Source: an uncultured Pelagibacteraceae bacterium (lineage in GTDB: Bacteria; Pseudomonadota; Alphaproteobacteria; Pelagibacterales; Pelagibacteraceae). From it: a stretch of DNA of 52,638 nt. The stretch spans positions 1-52,638 of the forward strand of contig CACKOU010000006.1 in NCBI GenBank assembly GCA_902601895.1, read 5' to 3'. The translations under genes and the position numbers were made by a program. Every line of letters starts with the position of its first letter. The first letter of the stretch is position 1. Positions 8,936 to 50,862 of the stretch are shown here, one piece after another. The notes below the pieces were generated by a model. That model saw only the letters and a list, made by a program, of their open reading frames with translations, was not told where the DNA came from and searched no databases.

Positions 8936-10108
8936 TTAATTTAATGCTTTTATACCAGGGAGAACTTTGCCTTCAAGATATTCTAAAAATGCTCCACCTG
9001 CAGTTGAAACGAAATTAAATTTATCTTTCATATTTAGTGAATTAATTACTGCAACTGTATCGCCTCCACCAACAACAGAAAATATTTTGTTCCCCCTGTT
9101 TGCTATATATTTTGCAACTTCTGAGCTTCCTAATGAAAAATTCTCATTTTCAACATAACCCAATGGTCCGTTCCATAATATTGTAGAGGAATCGTCAATA
9201 ATTCTTTTTATTTCAACTAATGTTTTTGATCCTACATCAAGTATTATATCATCATCTTCAATATCTTTAAAATCTTTTTCAAAAGATTTATCGTTCAATT
9301 TTTTTCCAATTTTGACATCTTTCGGAAAATATATTTTACATTTATTTTTTTCAGCATACTTGAAAATTTCTTGAATTATGTAATCAATATTTTTTTCATA
9401 TACAGAGTTACCAATTTTTAAACCTTTGTATTTCAATATATTATTCGCCATAGCACCAACTATTATAATACTATTAAATTTTGGTATTAAATTTTTTATT
9501 ATATTTATTTTCGAAGATATTTTAGATCCACCAATTATACATGTTATAGGCTTTTTTATTTCAGAAGTTATTTTGTTAAGAGCATTTACCTCTGCATTAA
9601 TTTGAATTCCGCTGTACGATGGAATATACTTTGTTATTTTTGACACTGAAGCATGATCTCTGTGTGAACACGAAAATGCATCATTCACATATATTTCACC
9701 TAAACTTGCCAATTTCTTGGAAAATATATCATCGTTGGCTTCCTCCTCGGGATAAAATCTAATATTTTCAAGTAGTACCAACTCATCATTTGAATTCTTA
9801 AAAATGTCTTCTTTATTTAAATTAAAAATGTTTTCTTTAAGTAATGATACTTCTTTTTTAATTTTACTTTTAATATACAATGATACCAATTCTAGAGAAA
9901 GTTCCTTAACTACTTTACCTTTTGGTCTTCCAACATGAGAAATTATTATAATCTTTGCTTTTTTTTTTAATAGAAATTCTAGTGTAGGCATAACCTTATC
10001 AATCCGGCTGGAGTCTGTTATTTTTCCATTTTTTATTGGAACATTTAAATCAAGTCTAAGAATTACTCTTTTATTTTCAATATTTTCTATATTTTCAATG
10101 GATTTCAT
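8936..10108 (-). CDS. pgk: Phosphoglycerate kinase
   Basis: 390 aa, standard bacterial length. It has the N-terminal substrate motif RVILRLDLNVPIKNG (14-28), HVGRPKG, LLENIRFYPEE, and the C-terminal nucleotide loop GGGDTVA. It phosphorylates ADP from 1,3-bisphosphoglycerate or runs in reverse during gluconeogenesis. Its start shares one base with the gap stop. The protein is notably rich in Ile, Lys and Asn, as expected from the base composition. Confidence 0.97.
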   Translation of the reverse strand: MKSIENIENIENKRVILRLDLNVPIKNGKITDSSRIDKVMPTLEFLLKKKAKIIIISHVGRPKGKVVKELSLELVSLYIKSKIKKEVSLLKENIFNLNKEDIFKNSNDELVLLENIRFYPEEEANDDIFSKKLASLGEIYVNDAFSCSHRDHASVSKITKYIPSYSGIQINAEVNALNKITSEIKKPITCIIGGSKISSKINIIKNLIPKFNSIIIVGAMANNILKYKGLKIGNSVYEKNIDYIIQEIFKYAEKNKCKIYFPKDVKIGKKLNDKSFEKDFKDIEDDDIILDVGSKTLVEIKRIIDDSSTILWNGPLGYVENENFSLGSSEVAKYIANRGNKIFSVVGGGDTVAVINSLNMKDKFNFVSTAGGAFLEYLEGKVLPGIKALN

Positions 10109-11115
10109 TATTTGATCTTGCTTACATACTCAGCAATATCACACATTCTATTCGAGAAACCCCATTCATTATCGTACCAAGCTGAAATTTTACCCATTTT
10201 ATTACCAACTACATTAGTAAGTGAGGAGTCTATAATTGCAGATGCACTTTTGTGATTAAAATCAACCGATACTAGCTGCTCATCTGTAACATTTAGAATA
10301 TTTTTAAGTTTCGTTTTTGAAGCTGAAAATAAAGAGTTATTTAATTTTTTTACAGTAATATTTTTTTTTACATTAAATATAAATTCTATTAATGAAACAT
10401 TCGGTGTTGGCACCCTCATTGCTACCCCCTCTAGCTTACCTTTCAATGAGGGTATAATCTCACCAATAGCTTTTGATGCACCAGTAGATGTGGGTACAAT
10501 TGATTGACTTGCAGATCTCGCTCTTCTTGGATCTTTGTGAGAATTATCTAATATTCTTTGATCACTTGTAAAAGCATGTATGGTTGTCATAAAACCATTA
10601 AGAATTATAAAATTTTTATTAATTACGTCTGCAACGGGAGCTAAACAATTTGTTGTGCAAGAAGCTGCTGAAATAATTCTATCATTTTTGTTGATCTTCT
10701 TATGATTTACGCCAAATACTATAGTTTTATCTGCCATTTTACATGGGGCTGATACAATAACTTTTTTTACCCCATTTACTATATGTGGCAGTAATTGATC
10801 TTTAGAATTAAACTTACCTGTGCACTCAAAAACATAATCAACACCATATTTTTTCCAATTTATGTCATTAATCATAGAGTGTTGGGTGTAAGATATTTTT
10901 TCTTTATTTATTTTTATGTAATTTTCTCCAGATTTTACTAGAGAACTAAAATTACCATGAATTGAATCATATTTTAATAAATTTGCGCAAATTTCAGAGC
11001 CCGATCTATTATTAATATGTTTAATAACTATTTTACCTTTGTAATTTTCATAAATTGACCTCACAATCATTCTGCCAATTCTTCCCATACCGTTAATGCC
11101 AACTTTTATTGTCAC
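10108..11115 (-). CDS. gap: Glyceraldehyde-3-phosphate dehydrogenase
   Basis: 335 aa. The Rossmann motif INGMGRIGR is at 7-15 and the catalytic cysteine in SCTTNC is Cys153. Aligned to E. coli GapA by eye, the segment AINDLLDAD becomes HINNRSGSE. The aspartate that binds the adenosine ribose of NAD is an Asn (about 37), followed by Arg and Ser-Gly. In this family loss of that Asp with a nearby Arg usually means NADP is accepted, so a biosynthetic role is likely. It overlaps tkt by 4 bases and pgk by 1. Confidence 0.96.
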   Translation of the reverse strand: MTIKVGINGMGRIGRMIVRSIYENYKGKIVIKHINNRSGSEICANLLKYDSIHGNFSSLVKSGENYIKINKEKISYTQHSMINDINWKKYGVDYVFECTGKFNSKDQLLPHIVNGVKKVIVSAPCKMADKTIVFGVNHKKINKNDRIISAASCTTNCLAPVADVINKNFIILNGFMTTIHAFTSDQRILDNSHKDPRRARSASQSIVPTSTGASKAIGEIIPSLKGKLEGVAMRVPTPNVSLIEFIFNVKKNITVKKLNNSLFSASKTKLKNILNVTDEQLVSVDFNHKSASAIIDSSLTNVVGNKMGKISAWYDNEWGFSNRMCDIAEYVSKIK

Positions 11116-13067
11116 TTTTTTAAATAAAATTTAATTTTTTTACTGATTTTTTCAATATTTAAACCAAAATGATCATAGACTTTTTTATAAGGAGCACTTT
11201 TACCGAAGTCTTCTATTGAAAAAGACAAGCCCTTTTCAATATATTTTTCCCAAGACATTTTTGATCCTGCCTCAATTGAAAAAGTGTTTTTGCTTTCTTT
11301 TAAGATTTTATCTTTATAGCTTTTGTTTTGTTTGTCAAAAATTTCTTGGCAAGGCATTGATATTACTTTTGAATAAATTTTTTGTTTGGCCAATTTATGA
11401 CTAGTCTCAATTGCAAGACTGACTTCTGATCCTGAGGCTAAAATAGTTAAATTTATATTTTTTGCAGTCCTCAAAACTTCGTATGCTCCCATAGAGCATT
11501 GATTTTTTTGACTAAAGCTATTTCTTACGGGTTTTAAGTTTTGTCTTGTTAAGGCTAATATGCTAGGTGTTTTGTTGCTGTTTAAAGCAATATCCCAACA
11601 TTCAATTGTTTCGGTTTGATCTGCCGGTCTTAAAACATTTAAGTTTGGAATAGATCTTAAAGCAGCAAGTTGCTCTACTGGTTGATGCGTAGGCCCATCT
11701 TCTCCTAGTCCTATTGAGTCATGTGTCATTATATAAATTACCTTCTGTTTCATTATAGCAGACAGTCGTATTGAAGGTTTGCAATAGTCTGAAAATATTA
11801 AAAAAGTACCTCCATAAGGAATAAAATTGCTATGAAGAGCCAATCCATTCATTATTCCACTCATTGCGTGTTCCCTAACACCATAGTGAATATAATTACC
11901 ATCGAAGTTACTTGAATTAATAATTTTATGTAACTTAGTTTTTGTATTGTTTGATCCTGCTAAATCAGCAGAGCCACCAATTAGAGTATTTCTCTCTTTT
12001 AATATTGCTGATAAAAACTCTTCTGAGGATTTTCTAGTAGCTATAGTCTTAAAATTTTTTATTGCATCTTTTTTTTGTTTTATAATTGAACTCGAGAACT
12101 TATTTTTTATAATACTTTTAAATTTTAGTTTGTGTTTGCTAAAAGTTTTATTCCATATTTTTTCCTTTTTAACACCTTTTTCACCAATTTTTCTCCAATC
12201 AGTTAAAATATTTTGAGGTATTTTAAATGGTTTATAATCCCAATCTAATTTCTTTCTAACTAACTTAATTTCATCTATTCCAAGAGGACTTCCATGAGAA
12301 GAGGCCTTTCCACCTTTATTTGGAGATCCAAATCCTATTTTTGTTTTACACGAAATCACAGTAGGTTTTTTTGATATTTGTGCTTTTTTTAACGCATTAT
12401 AAATTTCTCTGTAATTATGCCCATTGATCAAAATATAATTCCATCCATAGCTTTTAAATCTGTTTTTATAGTCATCTGAGACTGCTAAACTAGTAGGACC
12501 ATCTATTGAAATAGAATTATTATCAAAAAGCATTATAAGATTATTAAGTCTAAGATGACCGGCTAGACTCATTGCTTCATGACTTATTCCTTCCATAAGG
12601 CATCCATCACCAGCCAAGACATAGGTTTTGTGATTTATTAAATTACTTCCTAATTTTTTCTTTAAAATTTTTTCTGCAATTGCAAAACCCACAGAATTTG
12701 CAATCCCTTGACCTAAAGGACCAGTTGTTGTTTCAATACCTGAGTTTGGGTGATATTCTGGGTGTCCAGCACAAATTGAATTTAGTTGTCTAAATTTCTT
12801 GATGTCGTTAAGTGATACACTTTTATACCCAGTTAAGTACAAAAGCGAGTAAAGCAACATTGATCCATGTCCAGCTGATAAAATAAATCTATCTCTATTA
12901 AGCCAGTTTGGATTTTTTGGATTAAATTTTAGAAAATATTTAAATAAAACTGTTGCAACGTCAGCCATACCCATTGGCATACCTGGGTGACCAGAATTAG
13001 CGTTTTGAACCGCATCCATTGATAAAAAACGAATAGCATTTGATAAATTTTTTTCTATATTTTTCAA
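11112..13067 (-). CDS. tkt: Transketolase
   Basis: 651 aa, the usual length. The N-terminal TPP-binding domain shows SAGHGSML, GPLGQGIANS and the metal/TPP motif GDGCLMEGISHEA; the central pyrimidine domain shows GVREHAM and THDSIGLGEDGPTHQP; the C-terminal domain ends near EKISKKIK. It moves two-carbon units between sugar phosphates. It is the first gene of a minus-strand run tkt-gap-pgk-fba-thiE-efp-suhB with overlaps of 0-11 bases. The 52-base space upstream is shared with the divergent DUF4164 gene. Confidence 0.97.
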   Translation of the reverse strand: MKNIEKNLSNAIRFLSMDAVQNANSGHPGMPMGMADVATVLFKYFLKFNPKNPNWLNRDRFILSAGHGSMLLYSLLYLTGYKSVSLNDIKKFRQLNSICAGHPEYHPNSGIETTTGPLGQGIANSVGFAIAEKILKKKLGSNLINHKTYVLAGDGCLMEGISHEAMSLAGHLRLNNLIMLFDNNSISIDGPTSLAVSDDYKNRFKSYGWNYILINGHNYREIYNALKKAQISKKPTVISCKTKIGFGSPNKGGKASSHGSPLGIDEIKLVRKKLDWDYKPFKIPQNILTDWRKIGEKGVKKEKIWNKTFSKHKLKFKSIIKNKFSSSIIKQKKDAIKNFKTIATRKSSEEFLSAILKERNTLIGGSADLAGSNNTKTKLHKIINSSNFDGNYIHYGVREHAMSGIMNGLALHSNFIPYGGTFLIFSDYCKPSIRLSAIMKQKVIYIMTHDSIGLGEDGPTHQPVEQLAALRSIPNLNVLRPADQTETIECWDIALNSNKTPSILALTRQNLKPVRNSFSQKNQCSMGAYEVLRTAKNINLTILASGSEVSLAIETSHKLAKQKIYSKVISMPCQEIFDKQNKSYKDKILKESKNTFSIEAGSKMSWEKYIEKGLSFSIEDFGKSAPYKKVYDHFGLNIEKISKKIKFYLKK

Positions 13068-46670: not shown

Positions 46671-47660
46671 TTATCTGCCTATTTCTGCCATTCTCTCTAC
46701 AGATTTTCTTGCTTTTTGAATTGTCTCAATATCCATTATTAATTCGTTAGTTTCATTTTCTAAACAATCTAATATTTTAGGCAAAGTAATTCGTTTCATA
46801 TGGGGACAAAGATTACATGGTCTAATAAATTCAACATTTGGATTATCAATTTGAACATTATCGCTCATTGAGCATTCTGTGACCATCATAACTTTTTCTG
46901 GTTGATTATCTCTTACATATTTAATCATCCCACTTGTAGATCCTGCAAAATCAGATGCTTGTATTACATCAGGAGGACATTCAGGATGTGCTATTATTTT
47001 TATACCTGGATTAGCTTTTCTAATATCATTAATTTCTTGATCATTAAATTGTTCATGTACTTCACAAGTTCCTTTCCAAGAAATAATTTCTATATCAGTT
47101 TGTGATGCCACATATTTAGCTAAAAAATCATCAGGTAAAAATATTACTTTTTTTACTCCTAATGATTCTACAATTTTTACTGCATTTGCAGATGTACAAC
47201 AAATATCAGTTTCAGCTTTAACATCAGCAGATGTATTTACATAAGAAACCACTGGAACACCAGGATATTGTTTTTTGAGATTTCTAACATCATCGCCTGT
47301 TATAGACGAAGAGAGTGAACAGCCTGCCATCATATCTGGTAATAAAACTTTTTTTTCAGGACTCATTAATTTTGCAGTTTCAGCCATAAAATGAACTCCA
47401 CACATTACAATTATATCTGCTTTTGTTTTTGAAGCCTCTACTGCTAACGCTAAAGAATCTGCTGAAAAATCTGAAATGCCATGATAAATTTCTGGTGTTT
47501 GATAGTTGTGAGCAAGAATTACTGCGTTCTTCTCTTTCTTTAGTTTATTGATTTTGTAAATATAAGGTGCGTGTGTAGCCCATTCTATATCCGGAATTTT
47601 TTTTGATACTCTGTTATAAATTGAGCTTGTTGCTTTTTTTACTTCATTAGTAAATTCCAT
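46671..47660 (-). CDS. nadA: Quinolinate synthase
   Basis: 329 aa. [4Fe-4S] ligands are in MCGVHFMAET, KGTCEVHEQF and PCNLCPHMKR; the AHNYQTPEIY and AHPECPP motifs and HFMAETAKLMSPEKKVLLPD are present. It condenses iminoaspartate with dihydroxyacetone phosphate. It is the upstream gene of the nadA-nadC pair. The 58 bases to tRNA-Leu also hold that tRNA's promoter. Confidence 0.96.
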   Translation of the reverse strand: MEFTNEVKKATSSIYNRVSKKIPDIEWATHAPYIYKINKLKKEKNAVILAHNYQTPEIYHGISDFSADSLALAVEASKTKADIIVMCGVHFMAETAKLMSPEKKVLLPDMMAGCSLSSSITGDDVRNLKKQYPGVPVVSYVNTSADVKAETDICCTSANAVKIVESLGVKKVIFLPDDFLAKYVASQTDIEIISWKGTCEVHEQFNDQEINDIRKANPGIKIIAHPECPPDVIQASDFAGSTSGMIKYVRDNQPEKVMMVTECSMSDNVQIDNPNVEFIRPCNLCPHMKRITLPKILDCLENETNELIMDIETIQKARKSVERMAEIGR

Positions 47661-47677
47661 AAAAAAAACTTATCAAC

Positions 47678-47706
47678 TTGAAATAGAATTGTCATTCATT
47701 TAATCT
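47678..47706 (+). promoter_or_regulatory. Promoter for tRNA-Leu
   Basis: TTGAAA (47678-47683), exactly 17 bases, then TAATCT (47701-47706), followed by a G/C-rich segment (GCCGC) before the tRNA at 47719. The -35 is close to the consensus and the discriminator is G/C-rich as in stringently controlled stable-RNA promoters. Confidence 0.55.
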
Positions 47707-47718
47707 GCCGCATAAGAA

Positions 47719-47803
47719 GCGGTCATGCTGAAATTGGTAGACAGGCACGGTTGAGGGCCGTGTGGGCTAGCCCTTGAGAGTTCGAGTCTCTCTGACCGCA
47801 CCA
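47719..47803 (+). tRNA. tRNA-Leu (GAG)
   Basis: 85 nt, class II with a long variable arm. Acceptor GCGGTCA pairs TGACCGC; CCA is encoded. The anticodon stem CACGG/CCGTG encloses TTGAGGG, giving GAG. The variable arm is TGGGCTAGCCC-like, and the T arm GAGAG-TTCGAGT-CTCTC. tRNA-Leu genes are frequent phage attachment sites, but I found no repeat of its 3' end in the following 2 kb. Confidence 0.95.
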
Positions 47804-47950
47804 AAAAACCCTAAATTATCTCAAATATTGATTAAATTTATATGAATAATAAGAAGATAGAAATTGATTAATGCCATAAATATTAAATAATTTTTTTCTA
47901 AGGAACGTTTTTTAGGTTTTTTATATGGTAAAAAATAGCAAATTATATTC

Positions 47951-48895
47951 ATGAATAAAAAAATTATTTTACATATAGGTCTATACAAAACTGGATCAAC
48001 ATTTATTCAAGAACATTTGGGAAAAGTTGAAGATGATAATTTTCAAATTTTTTTACCTCGAGGAAAATTGGTTGAGCATCTTCTTGATTACTTAGATAAT
48101 CCAAGAGAAATAATTAGGAATAAAATTTTAGCAATTATAAACGAATGTAAAAATAACGTAATTATAAGTTCTGAAGGAATTTTTGGACACCAATCTAATG
48201 GTTTTATTGATGTATTAAAAAGGATGAGATTACTAGAAAGTTTGTTTGATAGACCTAATTATATTATTTTTTTTAGAGAGCCAAGTTCAATAATTTATTC
48301 AGGTTTTTTTCAGGGATTAAAAAAAAATTTTGATTTAAAATTTCAAAACTATATTTATAAAAATATTAATGATTTACACAAAACGATTATTAAAGACTTT
48401 TCTCAAACAACTAATTACAAGATTTTTGATTATAATAAGATTTTTTATCATTATTTAAATATTAAAGAAAGGGCATTGTTTGTTGAATATGAAAAATTTT
48501 TTAAAGAAAAGAATGTAGATGTTTTAAATAATTTTATTGGACTTGATATATTTTTTAATTTTGAGAAAAAAATCAATTTTTCATTAAAAAAATTAATTTA
48601 TTTAGAATTTTATAATAAGTTTTTTCTGTTTAAATACATTAAAATATTTTGGTTAGCATTAACTAGAGTTTTTTTTAGATTTAAAAAGACAAGAGATCCC
48701 TCATCAAGATTAATTGTGTTAATTAATGTTTTAATAAAAATTACACCAAAAATTTATTTAAAGAAGATCGAAGACAAACATCAACATTTATTAGACGAAA
48801 TTAGAAATTACCACAGTAAAAATTACGAAGACTTTAAAAAAAAATTGTTACAATTAAATAAAATAAAAGATAATGTTGTTTTCAAACTTCATTGA
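47951..48895 (+). CDS. Sulfotransferase-like protein
   Basis: 314 aa. The N-terminal HIGLYKTGSTFIQEHL holds the KTGST segment (13-17), which fits the PAPS 5'-phosphosulphate loop; IIFFREPSSIIYSG (about 106-119) fits the 3'-phosphate site. The remainder is very rich in Phe, Lys, Ile and Asn. No signal peptide. It lies alone between tRNA-Leu and the tmRNA cassette, a typical spot for accessory genes. It could sulfate a surface glycan, but acceptor and even activity are unproven. Confidence 0.68.
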   Translation: MNKKIILHIGLYKTGSTFIQEHLGKVEDDNFQIFLPRGKLVEHLLDYLDNPREIIRNKILAIINECKNNVIISSEGIFGHQSNGFIDVLKRMRLLESLFDRPNYIIFFREPSSIIYSGFFQGLKKNFDLKFQNYIYKNINDLHKTIIKDFSQTTNYKIFDYNKIFYHYLNIKERALFVEYEKFFKEKNVDVLNNFIGLDIFFNFEKKINFSLKKLIYLEFYNKFFLFKYIKIFWLALTRVFFRFKKTRDPSSRLIVLINVLIKITPKIYLKKIEDKHQHLLDEIRNYHSKNYEDFKKKLLQLNKIKDNVVFKLH

Positions 48896-48950
48896 AGCTT
48901 CATTGAACTTTATTTTAAGAAAATGAGAGTAGATAACGGAATTCTTTAAT

Positions 48951-48966
48951 AAGGGGCGTTCTGTTG
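48951..48966 (+). repeat. Direct repeat, left att core (attL)
   Basis: AAGGGGCGTTCTGTTG, identical to 49612-49627. Flanking bases differ (TTAAT on the left, TCCGACCC on the right), so the identity ends sharply at the right and fades at the left. Confidence 0.85.
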
Positions 48967-49012
48967 TCCGACCCAAATCAATACATAACATAATATATGA
49001 CTTTTTTGAAAG

Positions 49013-49033
49013 GTACATAGTAGAGTACATAGT
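49013..49033 (+). repeat. Two GTACATAGT repeats (arm-type sites, left end)
   Basis: Copies at 49013-49021 and 49025-49033, 12-base period, same orientation. They lie within the cassette, 46 bases from the end of the left core. Confidence 0.75.
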
Positions 49034-49096
49034 TAATCTAGGGTTTCTTTATGATGACTTTGTAATTGAAGTTTCTTTCTGATATGTAATTCTCAA

Positions 49097-49519
49097 GTGA
49101 AATTAAATTGGATTATTTTTGTAACTGGATGGATGTCATTCAGAGCAGTTGGGTCAGGTTTGTTTTTGTTTTGGATCTTTACTGAAAATGAGCGTTCGGC
49201 ACCATCCGAATGGATAGTTCCTTTTGTGGGCGACTTTATTATTGGGATAACTGCTTTATTTTTAGTTTACCACATTATAAAAAAACCAGGCACTATACTA
49301 TGGGGTCTTTTGCTGTCTTGGAATGTGATTGGTTTGTTAGATTTAATCCACGCAATAAATGTAAGTTTTGCTGCTCCTTATGGACCTATACCAGAAATAG
49401 GATTTAATGAATTGACAGTAAGATCTATTTTAATTTTAAATACTTTATTACAGATTTCTTGTATTTACCTATTGTTTCAAAAAGACATAAAAGAATATTT
49501 TAAAAAAAGTAAATTTTGA
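49097..49519 (+). CDS. Small membrane protein of unknown function, cargo of the tmRNA cassette
   Basis: 140 aa from a GTG start (an ATG at 49133 is an alternative). About four hydrophobic segments: 7-27, 43-60, 67-88 and 108-126, separated by a loop with acidic/Pro residues (ENERSAPSEW) and one with APYGPIPEIGFNE. The C-terminus is basic (KEYFKKSKF), suggesting it faces the cytoplasm. I do not recognise a family. No clear promoter or ribosome-binding site. It is the only gene between the two att-like repeats, so it is presumably the cargo. Confidence 0.65.
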   Translation: MKLNWIIFVTGWMSFRAVGSGLFLFWIFTENERSAPSEWIVPFVGDFIIGITALFLVYHIIKKPGTILWGLLLSWNVIGLLDLIHAINVSFAAPYGPIPEIGFNELTVRSILILNTLLQISCIYLLFQKDIKEYFKKSKF

Positions 49520-49533
49520 GCTTTGAAGGTATG

Positions 49534-49564
49534 GTACATAGTCAGTACATAGTAGGTACATAGT
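49534..49564 (+). repeat. Three GTACATAGT repeats (arm-type sites, right end)
   Basis: Copies at 49534-49542, 49545-49553 and 49556-49564: an exact 11-base period, about one helical turn, and the same orientation as the two left-end copies. The last ends 47 bases before the right core. Confidence 0.8.
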
Positions 49565-49611
49565 CTTTTTAAAAACAATTATCGTTGATAGAGAAAGATA
49601 ATAAATTATTT

Positions 49612-49627
49612 AAGGGGCGTTCTGTTG
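49612..49627 (+). repeat. Direct repeat, right att core (attR) within the tmRNA 3' end
   Basis: Second copy of AAGGGGCGTTCTGTTG. On the minus strand it reads CAACAGAACGCCCCTT, the 3' end of the tmRNA coding piece; its GCCCC can pair with GGGGC just upstream. Confidence 0.85.
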
Positions 49628-49666
49628 CCAGGTGCCCCGGACCCCGTAACCTAATTAATAAATTAA

Positions 49667-49696
49667 TTAAGCTGCAAGTGCGTAACTTTCGTTAGC
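49667..49696 (-). other. tmRNA proteolysis tag reading frame (ANESYALAA-stop)
   Basis: On the minus strand GCT AAC GAA AGT TAC GCA CTT GCA GCT TAA gives ANESYALAA, with Ala as resume codon and the conserved ALAA end that ClpXP-type proteases recognise. An A/T-rich stretch with a further in-frame stop follows. Confidence 0.85.
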
Positions 49697-49876
49697 ATTT
49701 ATAAATTAGCCCTTCACGGCGGAACAATACCGAACGAAAGAATAACTTTTAGTCATCCGTCGATCCTAATTCACCCCCATAAGTTGAAAATGGTGGAGGT
49801 GGTGGGTACTGCCCCCACGTCCGTAATGGTTATTACGAAATTCGTTTATCGTCATAGTTGGAAAACCAACATTAAT

Positions 49877-49904
49877 AATATAAAACCAAATTCAACAGAT
49901 TCAA
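49877..49904 (-). promoter_or_regulatory. Promoter for ssrA (minus strand)
   Basis: On the minus strand TTGAAT (49904-49899), 16 bases, TATATT (49882-49877). Transcription would start near 49870, at the small hairpin that begins the acceptor piece. The site overlaps the region just before the thyX start on the other strand. Confidence 0.5.
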
Positions 49905-49914
49905 TAAATTATTC

Positions 49915-50862
49915 ATGAAGTTAACTGACGAACAAATAAAAGAAATAAAAGACCAGCAATCTCAGCAAAATTCAACAAAAAGAGTGACAGCTCCAGAACT
50001 TGAAAAAATTCTGTATGATGCAATTCCAATATTAGACCACGGTTTTATTAGAGTTGTTGACTATATGGGCGATGATACCTCAGTAGTTCAATCAGCTAGA
50101 GTTTCTTATGGAAAAGGCACAAAAAAAGTTTCAACAGATGCTGGTCTAATAAAATATTTGATGAGACATTGGCACAGCACTCCTTTTGAAATGTGTGAAA
50201 TAAAATATCATGTAAAGTTACCCATATTTATAGCAAGACAATGGATTAGACACAGAACAGCAAATGTAAATGAATATTCTGCAAGATATTCAATTTTAGA
50301 TAAAGAATTTTATTTACCTGAGCCGCAACATCTCGCTGCTCAATCACAAAGTAATAGACAAGGTAGAGGTGACATTTTAGATGCAGAAAAAGCAAAAAAA
50401 GTTTTGAATTTATTAAAAGGAGATGCTGAACAAACTTATAATAATTATGAAACTATGCTTAATGAAAGATATGATGGATCAACTATTGACGAAAATGCTG
50501 TAGGTTTAGCAAGAGAGCTTGCTAGAATGAATTTAACATTAAATACTTATACTCAATGGTATTGGAAAACAGATTTATTAAATCTAATGAATTTTTTGAG
50601 GCTTAGAGCAGATAATCATGCACAGTACGAGATTAGAGCTTATGCAGATGCTATGCTCGATACCTTAAAAAAATGGGTACCAATAACTTATGAGGCTTTT
50701 ATGGATTATAGGGTTGGTGGAACAGAAGTTTCTGCAAAAGGAAAAATTATTATTCAAAAACTTATAAAAGGTGAAAATATTTCTATCGATGATACAGGTT
50801 TATCGAAAAGAGAATGGAATGAACTTATGGTCGCCTTTGAACTTAAAGATAAATTGATTTAA
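49915..50862 (+). CDS. thyX: FAD-dependent thymidylate synthase ThyX
   Basis: 315 aa. The ThyX motif RHR-x7-S is at 112-122 ([11 protein letters not shown]), followed by ARYS. It makes dTMP from dUMP with methylene-THF and reduced flavin, replacing ThyA. It starts 45 bases from the tmRNA 5' end, divergent. Its stop lies inside the convergent mrp gene (20-base overlap). Confidence 0.96.

Follow-up and report, generated by a model that had tools for sequence, protein, structure and literature searches.

What can move a short piece of DNA that has the ends of an integrative element and no integrase gene? The question is raised by a 661-bp unit beside ssrA, the tmRNA gene, in a 52,638-nucleotide contig of an uncultured Pelagibacteraceae bacterium (CACKOU010000006.1, assembly GCA_902601895.1), which is referred to here as the window. 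We read this unit as a non-autonomous integrative cassette that is moved in trans by the integrases of satellite-like elements, with a probability of roughly 0.8. The mobility of such units, some of which carry arm-type repeats ("armed" units), follows from comparisons: their boundaries, an empty site, a second site, ends shared with an integrase-encoding element and near-identical units found across genera.

The unit beside ssrA and its sites in relatives

Repeat searches place a 17-bp direct repeat, TAAGGGGCGTTCTGTTG, at both ends of the unit on the forward strand, as an attL-like left core (48950–48966) and an attR-like right core (49611–49627). The latter is the 3' end of ssrA, the integration target, a permuted (two-piece) alpha-tmRNA gene on the reverse strand (49611–49908; RF01849, 228 bits). 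The initial annotation had described perfect end repeats, one of them the tmRNA 3' end, and had given their length as 16 bp, which is one base short. Inside the cores lie forward-strand copies of the arm-type repeat GTACATAGT, two at the left (49013–49033; starts at 49013 and 49025, period 12) and three at the right (49534–49564; starts at 49534, 49545 and 49556, period 11), with gaps of 46 and 47 bases between core and nearest arm (counted from a 16-bp core); numbers, spacing and the exact 11-base period on the right are as annotated. Because five of the eight GTACATAGT copies in the 1.155-Mb window genome fall inside 0.55 kb of the cassette, and because this is the sole four-base 9-mer with at least four copies inside 560 bp of the 52.6-kb window, the clustering goes beyond chance.

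The annotated content of one gene and no integrase also stands: no integrase gene was found within the 661 bp, either among the open reading frames (ORFs) or by Pfam and NCBIfam comparison of the single gene. This cargo gene (49097–49519, forward strand, GTG start) encodes a hydrophobic protein of 140 amino acids (aa), for which neither database gave a match up to E = 1; its three Kyte-Doolittle hydrophobic stretches make the label of membrane protein plausible. The remaining ORFs of at least 40 aa are one of 65 aa that overlaps the gene and one of 58 aa that runs across the left core. In its direct cores, one of them the tmRNA 3' end, and in its arms of the same motif on both sides, the unit resembles the attachment (att) sites of lambda-type integrative elements; it does not encode its own integrase, and it has retained both att ends in the absence of a recombinase, as cis-mobilizable or other non-autonomous elements do.

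Empty sites, which the annotation had proposed to look for, are present in two relatives. The ssrA locus of genome G123 (L267) matches the window at 95.7% over 49610–50600 and at 93.9% over 47401–47807, and between these flanks it contains the tRNA-Leu gene, 18 bp and one core only; the same uninterrupted site occurs in G158 (L269), and across G123 and G158 the flanks are 93–96% identical. The window has therefore gained about 1.8 kb to the right of tRNA-Leu(gag) (47719–47803, forward strand, ARAGORN), the left landmark of the locus. This gain consists of two parts, the 661-bp cassette on the right and, on the left, a 314-aa ORF (47951–48895, forward strand) together with a pair of CTTCATTG repeats of period 11 (48887–48905, forward strand; starts at 48887 and 48898), which belong to one family with the ACTTCATTGA arms found in other units. 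A second cassette probably ends where the left core begins, and would have the CTTCATTG pair as its right-end arms and the ORF as its cargo; the ORF is absent from the G123 empty site and has no Pfam match above the cut-off, and no left core of this upstream cassette was found.

The unit, whose possible fixation at this place had been considered in the annotation, also occurs elsewhere. In G123, nucleotides 8–677 of the 677-nt window cassette align between a redoxin gene and rnhA (92.7% over 673 columns), where the copy is bounded by cores and has flanks unrelated to those of the window; one unit has therefore occupied two chromosomal sites. The cassette is found at the same junction in G158 (92.4% over 620 columns), followed by a polysaccharide-lyase-like gene and then a core. 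The junction was looked up in eight genomes, among them the cassette-bearing G123, and in the G392 locus L142. Five of the eight, all complete (L258–L262), have a gap of 1–10 bp between the redoxin gene and rnhA, with neither core nor insert; no core was found at the junction in G043, in a stretch where the redoxin gene was not found either. In the window genome a degenerate core is present and about 1.1 kb separates the two genes, and in G392 a lone core lies between them.

Further cores away from ssrA (L126, L127, L131, L138, L139, L149, L156, L157, L159, L162, L163 and L203) have right flanks that recur in approximately three groups, one of which is the rnhA 3' end. Lone cores at such secondary sites may be the footprints of excised cassettes. 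One core copy adjoins tRNA-Thr(tgt) (L186:13452), and others lie no more than about 170 bp from tRNA-Leu(taa) genes (L190 and L205).

The repeats might in principle be RNA or terminator elements, or chance matches, instead of att sites, given that the core is the GC-rich hairpin of an RNA gene. We consider this extremely improbable in the face of the empty sites, the second core-bounded location, the single orientation of the cores and the integrase element with the same arms (both described below); chance-repeat and RNA-element readings were rejected on the rnhA location.

Homologues of the cargo gene itself occur in 14 of 267 genomes, among them that of the window. In G196 and G176 the homologue is a resident gene 3 bp downstream of a thioredoxin-reductase-like gene, and the alignment of G088 indicates a like arrangement; the 94% identity between resident and cassette genes is confined to the ORF. 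The window genome has a second homologue (55%) near its thioredoxin-reductase-like gene, with a 339-aa gene in between; this homologue (G000:C1:143377, L253) is apparently frameshifted, unlike the intact copy in the cassette. None of the loci compared from L063 onwards contained the 140-aa gene. We infer from these comparisons that the cassette may have captured a host gene from another SAR11 lineage.

Elements that encode an integrase

The candidate for a helper comes from the single amplified genome (SAG) AG-349-M05 (G259), also an uncultured member of the Pelagibacteraceae, in which a 7.6-kb unit adjoins ssrA (L063). Its arms are the GTACATAGT repeats of the window cassette in the same numbers, two at the left and three at the right; its left end aligns with that of the cassette (the homologous block of the window being 48967–49012, forward strand), and its right core carries two mismatches. 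A recombinase gene is thus combined with the same ends. The annotation had predicted a satellite-like cassette mobilised by the integrase of another element sharing its arms, and such an element, with shared core, arms and left end, exists; the action in trans is our reading of this likeness.

The integrase gene is a 409-aa ORF that directly follows the left arms; its product, P0001, is 100% identical to that of AG-349-M05. Arg235, Lys269, Arg345 and Tyr377 are conserved in four aligned homologues, and would form the catalytic set of a tyrosine recombinase. When a model of P0001 was compared with the PDB, tyrosine recombinases ranked first (XerA, Tn1549 Int, Cre and XerH, at TM-scores of about 0.3), with topoisomerase IB, a known structural relative of these enzymes, ranking lower, and three relatives of P0001 match PF00589 weakly, below its cut-off. 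Profile A1, representing integrases of this type, found matches in 11 of the 397 genomes of the family set: five near full length (two with a reported stop; four of the five were used to build the profile), four C-terminal fragments and two marginal short ones.

Other integrase-encoding elements were also observed. A 9.4-kb element integrated at ssrA in AH-324-N03 (L164) carries CTTCGTTGA arms left and right and encodes a resolvase (PF00239) further in, with similar ORFs in L063, L194 and L195, and a T4 gp45-type sliding clamp (9637–10377; phrog_223, 1.5e-41), which suggests a satellite that may interact with the replication of a T4-like phage; the window cassette has no clamp-type gene. In two more SAGs (L224 and L225) an integrase gene adjoins a core next to tRNA-Leu(gag), and the arms of L224 are different ones. 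Taken together, the integrase elements look satellite-like, and the candidate helper is of this kind and not the prophage that the annotation had offered as an example. Another unit, of 149 bp (L064, oriented, 12868–13017), has hardly any cargo between its left and right GTACATAGT arms and is in essence a bare attP.

Under the preferred reading, a satellite-like element sharing the cell with the cassette would provide a P0001-type tyrosine integrase, which would bind GTACATAGT and recombine the cores, and the cassette would be excised as a circle with a complete predicted attP (three arms, core, two arms). The circle would reinsert into the ssrA core or a core elsewhere in the genome, and transfer between cells would probably occur with the integrase element or with a phage exploited by it. 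The unit itself would probably have arisen from an integrase element by loss of the interior and gain of a host gene.

The same origin underlies the alternative, raised in the annotation, of an internally deleted element that kept its ends. Internal deletion of a larger element is likely as the origin of the cassette, since its left end is homologous to that of an integrase element and integrase fragments occur elsewhere: a C-terminal fragment lies beside a core in L165, a remnant whose sequence the left end of the cassette matches at 72% over 140 columns (blastn), and in G028 another is separated from a core by about 1 kb. It is a further step to regard the unit as a dead remnant, now immobile, of a prophage or satellite whose interior was lost after its integration at ssrA. 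These fragments, the homologous left end, the missing integrase and the partly decayed arms at the rnhA site would agree with such a remnant, and we nevertheless think it unlikely, since the unit is core-bounded at a different locus in G123 and since other integrase-less units are 95–100% identical between genera with unrelated flanks.

Phage databases were searched for a matching integrase and an attP with the same repeats, as the annotation had suggested, and the IMG/VR and INPHARED searches produced none. In IMG/VR, 35 stretches matched the GTACATAGT pair (motif and tRNA scans covered all of them, close reading part of L034), four the 16-bp core and eight the 19-bp core. The integrase P0002 and profile A1 gave 7 and 96 pattern-matching stretches there, none of which was confirmed, and two class-2 end sequences (class 2 having arms such as TGTGATC and TGTGCCC) gave no match. 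INPHARED had no match to P0002, the 140-aa protein or one class-2 end (P0001 was not among the queries). The eight contigs with the 19-bp core (L206–L213) were rejected as attP, each having its own permuted tmRNA gene, for which the tag ADENLALAA was called (in extended form in one contig). The same core lies within the 3' ends of these viral genes, which are possible decoys or alternative docks. The four contigs with the 16-bp core were likewise set aside, having no tmRNA call and unrelated sequence beyond the core.

Arrays of units across SAR11

The core (at most one mismatch) is present in 345 of the 397 genomes. A subset of 114 comprises the window's genome and those of the same genus, taken in listed order as far as G322; one copy or more is present in 112 of them and two or more on one strand in 48, copies being counted genome-wide and not checked singly. 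In SAR11, units are arranged head to tail in arrays, both at ssrA and at secondary sites. Cores were found in 104 of the 108 scanned loci, a sample biased by having been fetched mainly for multiple core copies or arms; all have one orientation, with no reverse copy at up to one mismatch (loci without tmRNA were oriented by majority). These cores delimit 243 intervals of 98 bp to 13.7 kb, some of which may be spurious or composite, up to two mismatches being allowed, and a P0001-type integrase is encoded in two of them. In 65 genomes, most of them with arrays, no PF00589 match above the cut-off lies inside a fetched array, the sole match in an array unit being a weak one to a P0002-type gene in G310; in most matching genomes the domain is found in a gene of about 300–325 codons, which we infer is probably Xer. 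No IntI-type integrase gene was detected beside the arrays by PF00589 in these 65 genomes, no IntI-specific model having been run.

The content of the arrays is highly varied: 425 ORFs of at least 60 aa fall into 264 clusters, 194 of them singletons. Among 20 cargo ORFs chosen, not randomly, for comparison with Pfam, six had no match, and the matches of others include DUF805, DUF2784, an inverse autotransporter, type I and III restriction genes, an Mrr nuclease and a caspase-domain protein. PADLOC results for two ORFs of one 7.5-kb unit suggest a nuclease or restriction cargo.

Among 41 near-full-length cassette pairs between loci, 19 have thyX in both loci, and 15 of these show a higher similarity in the cassette than in thyX. 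G348 and G359 belong to different genera and have thyX genes that are 77% identical, and yet they hold a 686-bp unit without a single difference. The same is true of a 260-bp unit, encoding a protein of 76 aa, in G033 and G168, again of different genera; at the rnhA site G137 has this unit with 97% identity. Such exchange could be ascribed mainly to homologous recombination of imported DNA, with the cores as merely a shared short sequence. SAR11 does recombine heavily, and in 6 of the 24 closest pairs at least one flank is common to both. In the other 18, however, neither flank (up to 500 bp) has a match, the shared cores measure only about 14–25 bp, the rnhA junction is naive in five complete genomes, and fixed-spacing arm pairs with matching ends would go unexplained; recombination as the main route appears quite unlikely.

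The arms follow a clear pattern. Exact direct pairs at periods 8 to 20 were counted in 193 units longer than 400 bp: in right-end zones, period 11 accounts for 55 pairs, period 12 for 13 and all other periods for 4; the corresponding numbers are 29, 41 and 5 in left-end zones and 0, 2 and 12 in 367 interior control zones. Of the 34 units with pairs at both ends (the window's counted), 29 share at least 6 nt between the ends, and the longest common word averages 8.1 nt against 3.5 after shuffling, with none of 2000 shuffles as high. The five exceptions pair related but different words (e.g. TGTGATC with TGAGTCC) and are perhaps hybrids. The motifs include, besides GTACATAGT, ACTTCATTGA, ACTTCGTGTA, ATCCCGTACA, TGTGATC, TGTGCCC and GACGAGT. 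Pairs of GTACATAGT occur in 10 of the 397 genomes (15 matches, against one for the reversed control pattern) and lie beside ssrA in 8 of the 10. For class-2 arms no helper emerged: eight stretches around other SAR11 tyrosine recombinases, six of them with a tRNA gene, contained no ssrA core.

Several observations weigh against integrase-driven transfer as set out above. The mobility of the cassette follows from comparisons, and the action in trans and the carrier are proposed on their basis; the rnhA-site copy in G123 looks partly decayed (three mismatches in the left core, one in the right, one of five arms exact), and that in G158 lacks the right core. Comparison of P0001 with Pfam, PHROG and NCBIfam gave nothing significant, and its model is weak (mean pLDDT 60.6, TM-scores about 0.3). 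Integrases of its type are rare, with five near-full-length copies and several fragments in 397 genomes, and none was found in the window genome (G000), where a helper could accordingly be present only for a time. Neither the attP nor the integrase turned up in a phage record or an IMG/VR contig. Finally, 129 of 233 units of at least 200 bp have no arm pair in a relaxed test that gave no false pairs per end in shuffled sequences, and some of these armless units too occur in several genera; arm-dependent integrase action therefore cannot explain all arrays.

The armless units have a compact structure of their own. Among the 118 with an ORF and a length of 0.2–2.5 kb, 94 have a single ORF (median length 426 bp; ORF 25 and 18.5 bp from the cores), directed away from ssrA in 61 and toward it in 33. 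Armed units number 91, and in 44 of them there is likewise just one ORF, read toward ssrA in 39, with a median length of 665 bp; the window unit is of this armed, single-ORF kind. One ORF packed between two cores is also the organisation of integrons, and a recombinase might act on the tmRNA-derived core, perhaps as a folded single strand, with the arms as accessories. The close packing (about 25 and 18 bp to the cores), the exact units common to different genera, the very diverse cargo and the ability of the ssrA-side core to form a hairpin would fit this model. The hairpin has an ordinary stability for its composition (z about -1.1), so that a single-stranded hairpin site was rejected as not unusually stable; in addition, the fetched arrays lack a PF00589 match above the cut-off, and armed units such as the window's better fit a lambda-type integrase. 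We regard the model as rather doubtful.

A broader scheme, which we put forward tentatively, is that SAR11 possesses an integron-like cassette system that recombines at copies of the tmRNA 3' end and has no resident integrase, the arms being addresses for visiting helpers. Single host genes between two sites would be stacked at ssrA and recurrent secondary sites and exchanged across genera, and satellite-like elements would bring several arm-specific integrases in trans.

Relation to known systems

Integron cassettes are single genes between recombination-site copies, arranged head to tail and diverse in cargo. SAR11 arrays are alike in these respects and differ in that the site is the tmRNA 3' end and apparently not attC, that no IntI or attI was seen, and that armed units have arm-type repeats. 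Cis-mobilizable elements (CIMEs) keep attL and attR, lack a recombinase and are moved by a related element. The SAR11 cassette likewise keeps its att ends without a recombinase, and differs in its arms at both ends, its predicted complete attP and its occurrence as single units at different loci and in different genera. The CIME idea is found in the consulted excerpts of PMC3146451. According to excerpts of PMC3146451 and PMC2764846, the ssrA islands of Dehalococcoides (vcr-GI and relatives) accumulate in tandem with repeated 3'-end fragments, and 15 of 31 islands lack an integration module and were suggested to be cis-mobilizable. The islands described there are kilobases long and depend on the serine recombinase DsiB, whereas the SAR11 units are mostly shorter than 2 kb, often with one gene, and involve a tyrosine integrase and arm-type repeats; next to the left end of SAR11 elements lies the gene of a tyrosine recombinase, and not dsiB.

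Closer in lifestyle is 'Ca. Methylopumilus' (Methylophilaceae), like SAR11 a streamlined aquatic bacterium, whose additive island at tRNA-Lys has recurring 20-bp tRNA 3' ends, units of 330 bp to 42 kb and mostly genes of unknown function; the excerpted account reports no arm repeats, matched integrase element or single-unit transfer (PMC10872708). Tycheposons, described in excerpts of the same source, are cargo-carrying integrative elements of 4–200 kb at tRNA genes of streamlined marine bacteria, with a tyrosine recombinase; SAR11 cassettes are far smaller and lack the recombinase. In Pelagibacterales, tyrosine recombinases and tRNA genes have been noted beside a transferred operon (excerpts of PMC12416821). 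No report of ssrA cassette arrays in SAR11 was found in the open-licence PMC literature, and a term search of the main text of PMC7318151 returned no occurrence of tmRNA, integrase or cassette. Arrays of islands at ssrA or tRNA genes and cis-mobilizable elements are known kinds, of which the SAR11 cassette would be a variant.

SAR11 cells are among the most abundant on Earth and have streamlined genomes with, to our knowledge, few recognised mobile elements. If correct, trans-mobilised one-gene cassettes would explain how accessory genes (for small membrane proteins, restriction systems and surface polysaccharides) are swapped in such genomes at almost no cost, under testable rules: the arm motif as the address of the helper, the ssrA 3' end as the dock and lone cores as footprints of departed units.

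Similar arrangements were observed outside these units. In a freshwater relative (SCGC AAA028-D10, L230) an integrase gene lies near tRNA-Gly(gcc), with a pair of AGTTGTCTGCCA repeats beside the tRNA gene. In an unrelated phage contig (L034:541-800) two GTACATAGT-type arm pairs on the reverse strand flank an apparent tRNA 3' end, beside an ORF that resembles an integrase on reading its sequence; the likeness of these arms to those of SAR11 units may be convergent.
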